Positions 31,731 to 45,676 of a DNA stretch of 64,000 nt are shown one piece after another (position 1 is the first letter of the stretch; every line of letters begins with the position of its first letter). The stretch lies in the NCBI RefSeq assembly GCF_027587175.1, contig NZ_JAPCID010000009.1, forward strand, positions 62,001 through 126,000, written 5' to 3'. The notes beneath the pieces were generated by a model that searched no databases, had not been told where the DNA came from, and worked only from the letters and a program-made list of their open reading frames with translations. This DNA comes from Solirubrobacter deserti. GTDB lineage: Bacteria > Actinomycetota > Thermoleophilia > Solirubrobacterales > Solirubrobacteraceae. The translations under genes and the position numbers were made by a program.

Positions 31731-31757
31731 CCTAAAGAGGGACTGTCCCCCTTTAGG
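31731..31757. repeat. Dispersed 27-bp palindrome, copy 1
   Basis: CCTAAAGAGGGAC-T-GTCCCCCTTTAGG has 13-bp arms around one base, with a single arm mismatch. It lies in the gap between divergent methyltransferase and membrane-protein genes. The 9-mer GGTTCGCCA occurs at 31696 and again at 31756, flanking the segment. Confidence 0.85.
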
Positions 31758-31805: not shown

Positions 31806-31832
31806 CCTAAAGAGGGACTGTCCCTCTTTAGG
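31806..31832. repeat. Dispersed 27-bp palindrome, copy 2
   Basis: CCTAAAGAGGGAC-T-GTCCCTCTTTAGG is a perfect 13-1-13 palindrome 75 bp from copy 1 in the same intergenic gap. Confidence 0.9.
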
Positions 31833-41495: not shown

Positions 41496-42770
41496 ATGCG
41501 GCGACCCGCGCTTCTCCTCGCCCTCGCGGTCGCCGTGTTCGTGGTCGTCGTGGTGGCCTCGGCGCGCGAGAAGCCCGAGCCGCGGGTGCAGGCCACGCCG
41601 ACGCCCACCGCGAGCCCCAGCGCTTCGCCCGCGCCGACGCCGTCCCCGATCCCCGCCGCCGGGCGCGGCCTCGCCGTCGGCATCACCGAGTTCAACCCGA
41701 ACCTCGTCGCCGCCGAGCCGGCGGTGCCGGAGCCGTGGGAGTCGGTCCGGCAGGCGATCGGCGCGCTCAAGCCCGAGTTCTTCCGGCTCGTGATCGACTG
41801 GCACCACCTGCAGTTCTTCTCGGCCGAGCAGCCCGCCGACCTGGAGAAGCCCGAGACCGGGTGCATGCGGGAGGTGCAGCCGTGCCTGGGCTGGGCGGGC
41901 GTGCGCCAGCAGCTGCGGGCGCTCGCGTCGCGCCAGCGCGAGGGCGGCTGGCAGACGCTCGTGGTGATGACCGGCACGCCGGAGTGGGCCGCGCAGCCGC
42001 CGTCCGGCTGCGAGCGCGCGAAGGCGACGCCGCGGGCCCGCGCGCCGCGCCCCGAGACGCTGCCCGCCTATCGGCAGCTGATCCTCGACGTGCTCCGCGT
42101 GGCCGAGGAGGAGGGCGCGACGCTGCGCTTCTGGAGCCCGTGGAACGAACCGAACCTGCCGCCGTTCGTCTCGCCGCAGCGCGCGGAGTGCGACCCGGCC
42201 TCGCCGAGCCTCGCGCCCGCCGTCTACGCCGAGCTGGCACGCACGCTGCAGAGCGCGCTGGATGAGGCGCCGGGCGAGCAGCAACTGCTGATCGGCGAGA
42301 CCGCGGGCCTGCTCGAGGACACCAAGCTCGTGACCAGCGTGGGCCAGTTCATCGAAGGGCTGCCGCGGGATCTGGTGTGCGCGTCGCCCGTCTACACGCA
42401 GCACGCCTACATCGGCGGCGACGACCCGGTCGAGCAGGCGGCGACCGCGCTCGCCGCTCACGACTGCCCGGAGCCGCACACGCTCTGGATCACCGAGACG
42501 GGCGTCGGGCCGGCCCCGGAGGAGTACTCGGCGGTGGAGAACCCGGCCGCCGCGGGCTGCCGGGACCTGCACGAGCGGCTCGTGCGCTGGTACGAGGATC
42601 CGCGCGTGACCGTCGCCTTCCAGTACACGGTCCGCGAGGACGACAAGTTCCCGGTCGGCCTGTTCTCCACCGACATGACCGAGCGGCGCCCCGCCCTGGC
42701 GGAGTGGACCGCGTGGGGCGGGGGACGAGCGGCGACCGCGCCGCCGCCCGCCTCCGCCTGCGCAACCTAA
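41496..42770 (+). CDS. Membrane-anchored or secreted glycoside-hydrolase-like TIM-barrel protein
   Basis: 424 residues: an N-terminal hydrophobic segment (residues 5-22), a Pro/Thr/Ser-rich linker (30-55), and a clan-A-type barrel. FWSPWNEPNLPPF gives the acid/base Glu in the NEP motif near residue 215, and LWITETGVGPAPEEY gives a candidate nucleophile Glu near 335. Such proteins cleave polysaccharides (GH5/GH39-type), but the substrate is unknown. The TAA stop lies inside palindrome copy 3 (42766-42792). Confidence 0.8.
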   Translation: MRRPALLLALAVAVFVVVVVASAREKPEPRVQATPTPTASPSASPAPTPSPIPAAGRGLAVGITEFNPNLVAAEPAVPEPWESVRQAIGALKPEFFRLVIDWHHLQFFSAEQPADLEKPETGCMREVQPCLGWAGVRQQLRALASRQREGGWQTLVVMTGTPEWAAQPPSGCERAKATPRARAPRPETLPAYRQLILDVLRVAEEEGATLRFWSPWNEPNLPPFVSPQRAECDPASPSLAPAVYAELARTLQSALDEAPGEQQLLIGETAGLLEDTKLVTSVGQFIEGLPRDLVCASPVYTQHAYIGGDDPVEQAATALAAHDCPEPHTLWITETGVGPAPEEYSAVENPAAAGCRDLHERLVRWYEDPRVTVAFQYTVREDDKFPVGLFSTDMTERRPALAEWTAWGGGRAATAPPPASACAT

Positions 42771-42792
42771 AGAGGGACAGTCCCTCTTTAGG
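42766..42792. repeat. Dispersed 27-bp palindrome, copy 3
   Basis: CCTAAAGAGGGAC-A-GTCCCTCTTTAGG is a perfect 13-1-13 palindrome filling the gap between two convergent genes. Its TAA is the stop codon of the glycosidase-like gene, so it may act as a two-way terminator. Confidence 0.9.
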
Positions 42793-42798
42793 GGGTGC

Positions 42799-44172
42799 TT
42801 AGCGGACGTTTACCTTCATCGTCTTGGTGACGGGGGCGCCGGAGACCGGCTTGAACGTGACCTTCACGGACAGCTTGCCCTTCTTGGACACCTTCAGCTT
42901 GAGCTTGGCCGTGCCGGCCTTCTTCACCGTCTGGGAGGCCTTGCCGACGATCTTGCCGCGCAGCGTCGCGACCGCGGAGAGCTTGCCCTTGCCGGTGACC
43001 TTGACCTCGAGCGTGACGCCCGACTTGCGCGTCGGCGTGCCCGCGACCTTGGCCGGCAGCGAGACCTTGGCGGGCTCGGTCGGCTGGGTCGGCTGGGCGG
43101 GCTGAGCCGGCGGGGCCGGCTGCGTCGGCGTGACCGGCCGCGGCGCGGGAACGTCGGCGGGACCCCAGTCGGGCTCGGTCGCGCCGGCGACGAGCACGGC
43201 CGGCTGCGGCGTGGCGCCGTCGGTGGTGCACTCGTTGGCGAAGTTCGGGACGTTCGCGATCTTCAAGCCGGCGCCGTCGTTGAACGCCATGCGGCTGCCG
43301 TCCGGCGACCAGGTCGGCTGCCCGTAGGCGCCGCCCTCCGGGCCCTCGTAGCGGTAGCAGCGGACCACGTCGGAGCCGATCGGGTTGCCGTCCTTCCACG
43401 CGCTCGGGAAGCCGCGGACCATGTACACCGTCAGCGTCGAGTCGTTCTCACCCGTCTGGGCGGCGAGCTTGCGCTTGTCGCGCGTGATCTCGGCCCCGCT
43501 CATGTGCGGGTTGTTGACGATGTCGCTGAACCACGCCATCACCATGTTGCCCTTGCCGTTGCCGCCGTCGGAGATGCGGTCCAGCAGCAGGTCGTGGTTC
43601 GGGAGCTTGGTCGGGTTGGCGAGCAGGGTCATGTCGTTGTCGACCCACGACGGGTGGCGCCAGCCGGAGTGGTAGCCGATCGCGTCGCCGGTCTTCCAGT
43701 CCGTCATCCGGTCCGACCACGTGTAGCCCGTGCCACCCTCGTTGAGCGCGACCAGGCACTTGGGCGGGTAGCAGTTCGGCGTCGTGGTCTGGGAGAGCCA
43801 GTAGTAGGTGTAGGCGACCTTCGTGCCGTCCGGGGAGATCGCGGGGTCGTACGGGCCCCAGAACTGCTTGGAGCCGGCCGGGCGGGTGTCTGACACCGGC
43901 GTGGCGAAGTCGGCCAGCACGGCGCCTTCACGCGAGAGCTTGTGCAGGCGCACGCCGTTGAGCGCGACGATCGCGCCGTCGTCGGCCTGCGTGACGTCGG
44001 AGTAGCCGCCGGTCGAGGTGACCTGGTACTGGCGGGCGCCGTCGGGCGTGGTCAGCCAGACGTTGCCGTCCTTGATGTAGGCGATGGAATCGGCCGAGGC
44101 GCTCGACGCGCACGCCAACACGAGGAAGGCGGCGGCGAGGCCGGAGAAGAGGGAGCGGAGCATGCCCGCCAT
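42799..44172 (-). CDS. Secreted TolB-like beta-propeller protein with C-terminal beta domain
   Basis: 457 residues: a signal peptide (SLFSGLAAAFLVLACASSASA), TolB/WD40-like repeats with PAISPDGTKVAY and QPTWSPDGSRMAFND, a Pro/Gln/Thr-rich linker near residue 345, and a Lys-rich immunoglobulin-like tail (SLPAKVAGTPTRKSGVTLEVKVTGKGKLSAV). Lone cysteines in PNCYPPKC suggest a disulfide. A cell-surface binding role is likely. It is flanked by palindromes at both ends (42766 and 44217). Confidence 0.82.
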   Translation of the reverse strand: MAGMLRSLFSGLAAAFLVLACASSASADSIAYIKDGNVWLTTPDGARQYQVTSTGGYSDVTQADDGAIVALNGVRLHKLSREGAVLADFATPVSDTRPAGSKQFWGPYDPAISPDGTKVAYTYYWLSQTTTPNCYPPKCLVALNEGGTGYTWSDRMTDWKTGDAIGYHSGWRHPSWVDNDMTLLANPTKLPNHDLLLDRISDGGNGKGNMVMAWFSDIVNNPHMSGAEITRDKRKLAAQTGENDSTLTVYMVRGFPSAWKDGNPIGSDVVRCYRYEGPEGGAYGQPTWSPDGSRMAFNDGAGLKIANVPNFANECTTDGATPQPAVLVAGATEPDWGPADVPAPRPVTPTQPAPPAQPAQPTQPTEPAKVSLPAKVAGTPTRKSGVTLEVKVTGKGKLSAVATLRGKIVGKASQTVKKAGTAKLKLKVSKKGKLSVKVTFKPVSGAPVTKTMKVNVR

Positions 44173-44215
44173 GGTGCGGAGCGGCGCTTGCCGCCCGCTT
44201 GCCGCGACCTTGCCG

Positions 44216-44252
44216 CGTTTCCTAAAGAGGGACAGTCCCTCTTTAGGAAACG
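44216..44252. repeat. Dispersed palindrome, copy 4 (extended 37 bp)
   Basis: The 27-bp core is at 44221-44247 (CCTAAAGAGGGAC-A-GTCCCTCTTTAGG). Pairing extends through GTTT/AAAC and one more base on each side, giving 18-bp arms around the central A at 44234. Confidence 0.92.
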
Positions 44253-44265
44253 GAACGCAGCCGAA

Positions 44266-44292
44266 CCTGAACGGCGCCTGGCGCCGTTCAGG
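44266..44292. repeat. Second-type 27-bp palindrome (CCTGAACGGCGCC-T-GGCGCCGTTCAGG)
   Basis: It has the same geometry as the other family (13-1-13, ends CCTRAA/TTYAGG) but unrelated inner bases. It lies 18 bases from copy 4. Its TGA (44288-44290 on the minus strand) is the stop codon of the membrane-protein gene. Confidence 0.9.
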
Positions 44293-45676
44293 AAGCGCCC
44301 TGGGCCAGCAGCCACAGGGCGAGCGACGTGAAGCCGACCATCACGCCGAGCATCCAGTACTGCGAGCGCACCGCGAGCTTCGCTTCGCCGTACAGCGTGA
44401 GCGCGCGGTCGTGCGCGAGCGCGAGCGCCGCGACGTGGCCGATCACGACCACCGCGACCTGCACGTACCACGTGTTCTCCTGCGGGAAGACGGTGTAGTC
44501 GATGCCGTTGTCGACGGTGCCGAACAGGTTCCAGCCCTGCTCGAACGGGTCGCTGGCCAGGTAGCTGATGGCCTGGCCCTCGTAGAAGATCAGCGTCAGG
44601 TAGTGCGCGGCGACGTAGACGGCGGCGATCGGCACCAGCGAATGCACGAAGCCGTACTCGAGCTTGTGCAGGCTGAGATTCCCGCCCACCGAGCGGGCGC
44701 CCTCGATGCCGAGCCGGTAGAAGCCCCACACGATCAGCACGCCGAGCAGCATCCCGAGCGTGCCGGCGATCCGGGTCGCGGTCAGCACGCCGATGCCGAC
44801 GCCGTCGAGCGAGTCCACCACGCCGGTCTGCAGGTCCCGCCACAGCTGGCCCTGGCTGAGCCCGTCGAACGTGACCGTGCCGATCATCACCATCACGAAC
44901 GCGACGGTCCCCGCCACGTCGTCCAGCCGCGGCAGCCCGCCGAGCGGGCGCCGCAGGCCGAGCGTGCCGCCACGCGTCTCGAACACCGACATGCGCGCGA
45001 ACAGGCCGAAGTAGACCGCGAACGCCTCGCCGTTGCGCGTCCACGTCTCCACGCCGAAGTAGCACTGCGCGGCCAGCGTCAGCACCGTGTAGCCGAGCGC
45101 GGCGGTGACCAGCAGCGACGGGTTCGTCTCACCCCACTTGCCGACGAGCTCGATCCAGACGAACGCGAACAACAAGATCGCGGCCGGCCAGCGCCCGAGC
45201 TTCTCCGGATACGGCCGGTTCAGCGACGGCAGCAGCCGCCCGAGCGCCCGCCACGGGCTGAGCGCGCGGAACACGTCGCCGAACAGGATCGAGATGAACA
45301 CGAGCCCGACCCAGAACGTGATCAGGATGAACGTCGACGAGAAGTGGTTGAGCGCGAGCCCTTCCGCGATGTAGCCGGCGAGGACCGTCACGGCGAGCAG
45401 GAAGATGCCGAGCGCGCCCCACAGGATCTGCAGCGGCAGGCTGCCCCAGCCCTTGCCGAACGGCAGCGGGCGCCAGTTGTCCTGCTCGAGCCGCGGCGTC
45501 GGCCACAGCACCGCGAGCGCGAAGAACGAGATCACCAGCACCGCCGCGGCGGCCCACGCGAACAGCCACTGCGGGATCGGCAGCGGTGGGCGCTGGACGA
45601 GGCCGTGCGCCTCGGCTGCAGCGGGAAGGAGGACGAGCAGGGCGGCGCCGAGCGCCGCCGGGGCGAGCTTTCTCAC
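44288..45676 (-). CDS. Conserved multi-spanning membrane protein (fenitrothion-hydrolase-annotated type)
   Basis: 462 residues: a short signal-like start ending AEAHGLVQRPPLPIPQW, then about 10-11 hydrophobic segments with WPTPRLEQDNWRPLPFGKGW, FGDVFRALSPWRALG and FARMSVFETRGGTLGLRRP. Proteins of this type in actinobacteria are sometimes annotated fenitrothion hydrolase, a label I would not take literally. It is the last gene of a DsbA/thioredoxin-lipoprotein/membrane-protein operon (GTGA overlap with the lipoprotein). Its stop codon is inside the second-type palindrome. Role unknown, plausibly thiol or respiratory electron traffic. Confidence 0.82.
   Translation of the reverse strand: MRKLAPAALGAALLVLLPAAAEAHGLVQRPPLPIPQWLFAWAAAAVLVISFFALAVLWPTPRLEQDNWRPLPFGKGWGSLPLQILWGALGIFLLAVTVLAGYIAEGLALNHFSSTFILITFWVGLVFISILFGDVFRALSPWRALGRLLPSLNRPYPEKLGRWPAAILLFAFVWIELVGKWGETNPSLLVTAALGYTVLTLAAQCYFGVETWTRNGEAFAVYFGLFARMSVFETRGGTLGLRRPLGGLPRLDDVAGTVAFVMVMIGTVTFDGLSQGQLWRDLQTGVVDSLDGVGIGVLTATRIAGTLGMLLGVLIVWGFYRLGIEGARSVGGNLSLHKLEYGFVHSLVPIAAVYVAAHYLTLIFYEGQAISYLASDPFEQGWNLFGTVDNGIDYTVFPQENTWYVQVAVVVIGHVAALALAHDRALTLYGEAKLAVRSQYWMLGVMVGFTSLALWLLAQGAS

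Follow-up and report, generated by a model that had tools for sequence, protein, structure and literature searches.

The window analysed here is a stretch of 64,000 nucleotides of Solirubrobacter deserti and is part of contig C378 of a 7.55 Mb assembly with 72% GC (genome G000). At positions 44266-44292 it contains CCTGAACGGCGCC-T-GGCGCCGTTCAGG, a perfect palindrome of two 13-base arms around one central base (13-1-13; no strand is assigned to this and the other palindromes). Bases 3-5 of the element, read on the minus strand, are the TGA stop codon (44288-44290) of the minus-strand gene 44288-45676, which encodes a predicted membrane protein and has orthologues in five congeners (G001 to G005 in the following) with 72-82% identity. 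The palindrome begins 18 bases past the 27-bp core (44221-44247) of a further element, copy 4 (44216-44252), whose perfect stem is extended to 18 bp. Copy 3 (42766-42792) is situated between two convergent genes and supplies the TAA stop codon (42768-42770) of the plus-strand gene 41496-42770, for which neither a Pfam nor an NCBIfam match was found. Copies 3 and 4 enclose the minus-strand gene 42799-44172, whose product matches a PD40 beta-propeller repeat. Two additional elements, 75 bp apart, are found at 31731-31757 and 31806-31832 (C378:580133-580159 and C378:580208-580234); together with copies 3 and 4 they are assigned below to the GAGGGAC class of REPs. The geometry, the distance to copy 4 and the positions of both stop codons agree with a preliminary description made from the letters of this DNA. 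A separate feature of the region is formed by three CTTGCCG units with 11-base spacing (44187-44215) between the start of gene 42799-44172 and copy 4, which are kept in G001, G003 and G004 and are possibly an operator or promoter element.

For the genome surveys, stretches of sequence and pattern searches were combined. The pattern CCTRAA-N15-TTYAGG, a search along the lines suggested in the preliminary description, was matched 31 times in the 7.55 Mb genome and not at all in the control. A GAGGGAC-type core was present in 30 of these matches; unrelated inner bases, as already described for 44266, occurred at this position only, which makes it the single 27-bp CCTRAA/TTYAGG palindrome with a non-GAGGGAC core inside G000. 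The GAGGGAC palindrome itself amounts to approximately 60 copies (61 forward matches, 63 copies extracted), many of them in pairs 75-100 bp apart. At their feet, CCTAAAG is preceded by GAA or GTTT, and TTTAGG is followed by TTC or AAAC. A GTAG (or CGTC) tetranucleotide is absent at these feet, and the GAGGGAC elements are therefore not filed under the tagged super-families.

Three genes of G000 exceed the Pfam cut-off for PF01797 (Y1_Tnp), and two of them (C390:320749 and C1:1468293) are flanked on both sides by inverted GAGGGAC copies (320646/321269 on C390 and 1468188/1468844 on C1), one preceding the conserved domain by approximately 105 bases and the other following it at 190-220 bases. 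The same arrangement was found at a PF01797 gene of the congener G003 (C4). On rescanning, two of the three proteins scored 35.7 and 39 bits against a Pfam cut-off of 23, and the sole NCBIfam family matched was NF047646 (REP-associated tyrosine transposase) with 63.9 and 60.9 bits; these values lie below the cut-off of 80, which delimits NCBI's equivalog and not RAYT/REP systems as such. A HUH motif (NHVH) and a candidate tyrosine (YAQYFN) can be read in the protein sequence; no solved structure close in sequence was found at an E value of 0.01. Among 101 genomes searched, four carry the GAGGGAC palindrome, all of which belong to the genus and possess PF01797 genes. Judged from these sequences, the GAGGGAC palindromes are a mobile REP family of a predicted RAYT transposase. 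They resemble the described RAYT/REP (REPIN) systems of the Y1 HUH transposase TnpA-REP (PMC2817692, PMC3116915, PMC8266576) in being dispersed, short and mostly extragenic with a bias for 3' ends, in the inverted copies on either side of a single-copy PF01797 gene, in the REP pairs 75-100 bp apart and in having one class per RAYT. Unlike these systems, the REPs considered here are near-perfectly symmetric with CYTRAA/TTYAGG ends and have no GTAG at the foot, and their RAYT remains below the NCBIfam equivalog cut-off. An inverted GAGGGAC pair 632 bases apart, a spacing like that around RAYT genes, was also noticed at C1:85458-86116 (1655-2321 of the extracted locus L035); no PF01797 gene was found between its members, and one gene runs through instead.

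Genes were called with a codon-usage caller of our own, with small errors possible. On this basis, the 63 extracted copies are distributed over convergent (18), tandem (23) and divergent gaps (10), called genes (10) and locus edges (2). Convergent gaps are over-represented compared with their share of intergenic base pairs (18 of the 51 intergenic copies, P = 2e-4), in accordance with the gene 3'-end location expected earlier. In 19 of the 63 copies the CC-TAA end supplies the stop codon, the flanking gene ending exactly at element base 5, and three copies provide the stop codons of both flanking genes, as had been anticipated for palindromes beginning with CCTRA. Comparable stop codons are known from GTAG- and CGTC-tagged REPs (PMC3733652), whose termini likewise give stop codons to flanking ORFs, mostly in convergent or unidirectional gaps. 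There the GTAG tag of one end is the source of the TAG, whereas TAA or TGA is provided here by the palindrome's own CCTRA ends and can therefore be used on either strand. Beyond the window, a very long perfect hairpin with 22-bp arms extends over both stop codons of a convergent gene pair and has no U-tract (C378:665970-666016).

On the basis of the stop codons in the 44266 palindrome and in copy 3, the preliminary description had proposed modules combining translational stop and transcription termination. As a class selected for that purpose, such modules would be in line with the 19 stop-supplying copies and the enrichment at convergent 3' ends. The elements, however, bear the hallmarks of mobile DNA (a RAYT, pairs of REPs and a patchy distribution over the genus), and 10 of the 63 copies lie inside called genes and 10 between divergent genes. 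Moreover, the hairpins are not followed by a U-tract, TTCGGCTGCG follows the stem at 44266 on the minus strand, a scan for canonical terminators revealed no terminator-like site between 41000 and 47500, and three congeners have no palindrome at the 44266 site. We regard a dedicated module as unsupported and very unlikely, since a mobile origin accounts for more of the observations; termination by REP hairpins may still be a side effect.

A perfect 13-bp stem as found at 44266 is beyond chance. In dinucleotide shuffles of 295 gene 3' ends (gap of at least 20 bases), 0.4 perfect stems of at least 10 bp arose per round and none of at least 13 bp. A 51-nt stretch at 44266 is predicted to fold into a stable stem-loop at the end of the gene (-29.4 kcal/mol, z = -4.0), and it has to be considered whether the palindrome serves the 44288 gene simply as an intrinsic terminator of the GC-rich, U-less (I-shaped) type or as a hairpin that stabilises the 3' end. 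The CCT/AGG outside a GAA...TTC stem and the overlap with the stop codon would then be due to chance, and only copy 4 would be a REP. Non-REP perfect stems of at least 10 bp were indeed found at 30 of the 295 gene 3' ends, with a mean of 1.4 T in the next eight bases and in several cases with GAANGG...CCNTTC arms; the arms GAACGGCGCC/GGCGCCGTTC of the 44266 element resemble such generic hairpins of G000, e.g., GAAGGGGCGCC...GGCGCCCCTTC. Stable hairpins without a U-tract are known from GC-rich bacteria, and U-poor hairpins were mapped at RNA 3' ends in Streptomyces clavuligerus with its 72% GC (PMC8269248). However, only four of the 30 generic hairpins overlap a stop codon and none has CCTRA ends. 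Unlike a conserved terminator, the orthologous spot is occupied by two other REP classes in two congeners and lacks a palindrome in three, and in contrast to the U-less terminators described, REP sites extend over the stop codon and differ between congeners both in their presence and in their core. That ends, register and REP site should coincide by chance is improbable by our own estimate. We regard the terminator reading as unlikely.

The inner bases of the 44266 palindrome have no family of their own. With up to three mismatches, a search of G000 for its core yielded only non-palindromic matches at chance level, and a second dispersed repeat family with this core inside the genome was accordingly rejected. 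The exact 21-bp core was matched only twice among 84,980 species, both times in unrelated MAGs, which does not point to a source RAYT, and it is absent from the ten RAYT loci inspected. The palindrome corresponds to the REP family in its ends, its geometry and the register of its stop codon, and relatives (G001 and G003) have REPs in its place; the multiple copies typical of the family are missing. Since it is single-copy, we term it a REP-site palindrome with an orphan core, outside any living REP class. The single copy and the missing RAYT with the same core count against its identity as a REP. Palindromes ending in TGAA were considered as a class of their own and rejected, because forward counts of CTGAA-N7-21-TTCAG in the genus were close to the control, with the exception of a few palindromes. 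A second palindrome with CCTGAA...TTCAGG ends, which has a GGGGCC core, is located just beyond a stop codon at C93:344064, so that such ends can occur on hairpins unproven as REPs.

Comparison with the sister species revealed what occupies the same position elsewhere. On the orthologous stop codon G001 carries a REP of the GGGGTC type and G003 one of the GGCCC class; within both elements the stop codon occupies the same bases as at 44266. No palindrome was detected on this stop codon in G002, G004 and G005, and in G004 the gene simply ends in TAG at an empty site. G001 has the foot GAACCTGAA in common with G000 and a CCTAAAGG remnant at the position of copy 4. The place of copy 3 is likewise occupied by different classes, namely GAGGGAC in G000, GGCCC in G003, CGTCC in G001 and a nested GGGGTC type in G005; G004 has no element there. 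The CYTAA end is found at the identical place in all four occupied sites. In G005 (L148, about 2100-2160) the GGGGTC-type REP sits midway inside a palindrome AACCTAAACCCCACC...GGTGGGGTTTAGGTT and represents a REP nested in a REP, and in G001 (L147, 1898-1965) the CGTCC REP is tandemly duplicated, in units of approximately 49 bases that include the final codons of the gene. In G002 (L090) the counterpart of gene 42799-44172 is apparently missing, and a decayed GGGGTC palindrome lies between the two flanking gene ends, which face each other. The comparison also bears on a possible role of the 44266 palindrome as operator of a transcription factor controlling gene 42799-44172. It is located 93 bases upstream of this gene, and odd palindromes can be operators; we rejected this reading as next to negligible in view of the overlap with the stop codon of the upstream gene, the absence from three congeners and the different inner bases in two others.

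An unbiased comparison was made between C378 and 400 kb of G001; the collinear stretch amounts to approximately 435 kb, and 213 intergenic gaps entered the statistic. Six of the seven REP sites of G000 have a REP at the same place in G001 (hypergeometric P = 1.2e-8), and the core differs at five of these six. The seventh site (C378:580135) could not be placed in G001 and has the same core in G004. At site A (C378:542005), the cores differ between G003 and G004, and both species keep even the atypical feet GGAACATAAAG...CTTTATCTT. Site B (C378:640450) is occupied by REPs in G003 and G004 and in G001 by a perfect orphan palindrome, TGAACGGGCC-G-GGCCCGTTCA, on a stop codon, which is a second case resembling 44266. 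Other REP sites retain the same core between species, and core switching is thus frequent and not universal.

The preliminary description had postulated a diverse class of palindromes. Such a class with fixed ends and many cores does exist; it spans the genus, however, and not this single genome. Each RAYT in the genus has its own palindrome at fixed offsets, and the cores linked to a RAYT are GAGGGAC, GGGGTC (G000 C200 and G004 C802), GGCCC (G003 C149) and CGTCC (G001). Further dispersed cores include GTGCC, GGGGCC and GGTGCC. Real classes were also obtained with TAAA-N8-12-TTTA in G001 (53 matches versus 1 in the control) and G003 (78 versus 3). In G000 the control of this pattern exceeded the signal, and the listed matches were almost all on AT-rich contigs. 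These contigs (C12, C36, C57, C77, C94, C158 and others) are small, stand out from an assembly with 72% GC and an estimated contamination of 5%, and probably belong to another organism. The RAYT loci G000 C200, G001 and G003 C149 have a downstream hairpin in common, 1.16-1.17 kb away, yet carry three different cores. By this arrangement they look syntenic, and three cores at apparently syntenic loci are an "orthoswitch" as published for Pseudomonas and Stenotrophomonas (PMC3686654), where orthologous RAYT loci are likewise flanked by different REP classes and older classes are left in the genome. In the published case a new class is described as spreading and old copies as decaying in place; here, in contrast, sister species have different classes at identical dispersed sites away from RAYT genes, and both the ends and the stop codon persist.

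Taken together, we consider the 44266 palindrome, with a probability of approximately 0.7, to be a REP-site element of a RAYT/REP system in which the ends were kept and the inner bases replaced. The site, its register, its ends, the REPs of relatives and the linkage of the classes to RAYT genes are seen directly in the sequences; that the core was replaced in place, as opposed to repeated insertion at one site, is what we infer from alignments of the sites between species. Alternatively, REPs of different classes may have been inserted independently, species by species, into 3' ends that are preferred targets, for instance if stop-codon surroundings are recognised as a target motif, and cores were never replaced in place. 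The empty site with its plain TAG stop in G004 and the enrichment of REPs in convergent gaps are consistent with separate insertions, and relatives of the IS200/IS605 group select short cleavage and target sites via guide-sequence complementarity (PMC8266576). The occupation of all six collinear G000 sites in G001, on the other hand, would demand a very strong target preference, the register is base-exact at several sites, and the non-consensus feet common to two species at site A are expected from one old insertion. We regard separate insertion as rather unlikely, somewhat less so than the terminator. The probabilities of the alternatives are not mutually exclusive and overlap, because independent insertion is compatible with REP identity.

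In the preferred reading of a replaced core, an ancestral REP would have been located on the stop codon of the 44288 gene. Its ends CYTRAA/TTYAGG would have stayed, and therefore also the stop codon, as the inner bases of both arms were exchanged for a core that now has neither a RAYT nor another copy in G000. Two routes of replacement are conceivable: the RAYT might cut at the common feet and put in its current hairpin, or, after mutation, one arm might serve as template for the other during replication. The TnpA-REP proteins studied cut at the dinucleotide CT (PMC8266576), which is contained in the common CCTRA feet, and by analogy a cut at this position is a putative step of the first route. 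The stop codon and any protection or termination of RNA at the 3' end would then be consequences of the tolerance of REPs at these places and not the reason for the element. As a tentative extension, for which the odds are somewhat against us, REP sites might be durable addresses: with a change of the RAYT core, existing REPs would be converted genome-wide while feet and stop codon are kept, and 44266 would have been caught outside the current classes.

RAYT/REP systems, class switching at RAYT loci (PMC3686654) and stop codons supplied by REPs (PMC3733652) have already been published. What appears to be new, within the open-access literature searched, is a change of core at dispersed sites away from RAYT genes in which the ends and the stop codon persist. 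The CCTAA or CCTGA stop codons within perfect palindromes seen at some genes of this organism are explained by the REP ends. According to the paper describing class switching, only speculation is possible on its mechanism (PMC3686654). The sites presented here bear on the joint turnover of REP classes and their RAYT, and a genus comprising six or more core classes, whose sister species carry different classes at corresponding gene ends, provides a ready test of replacement in place versus fresh insertion.
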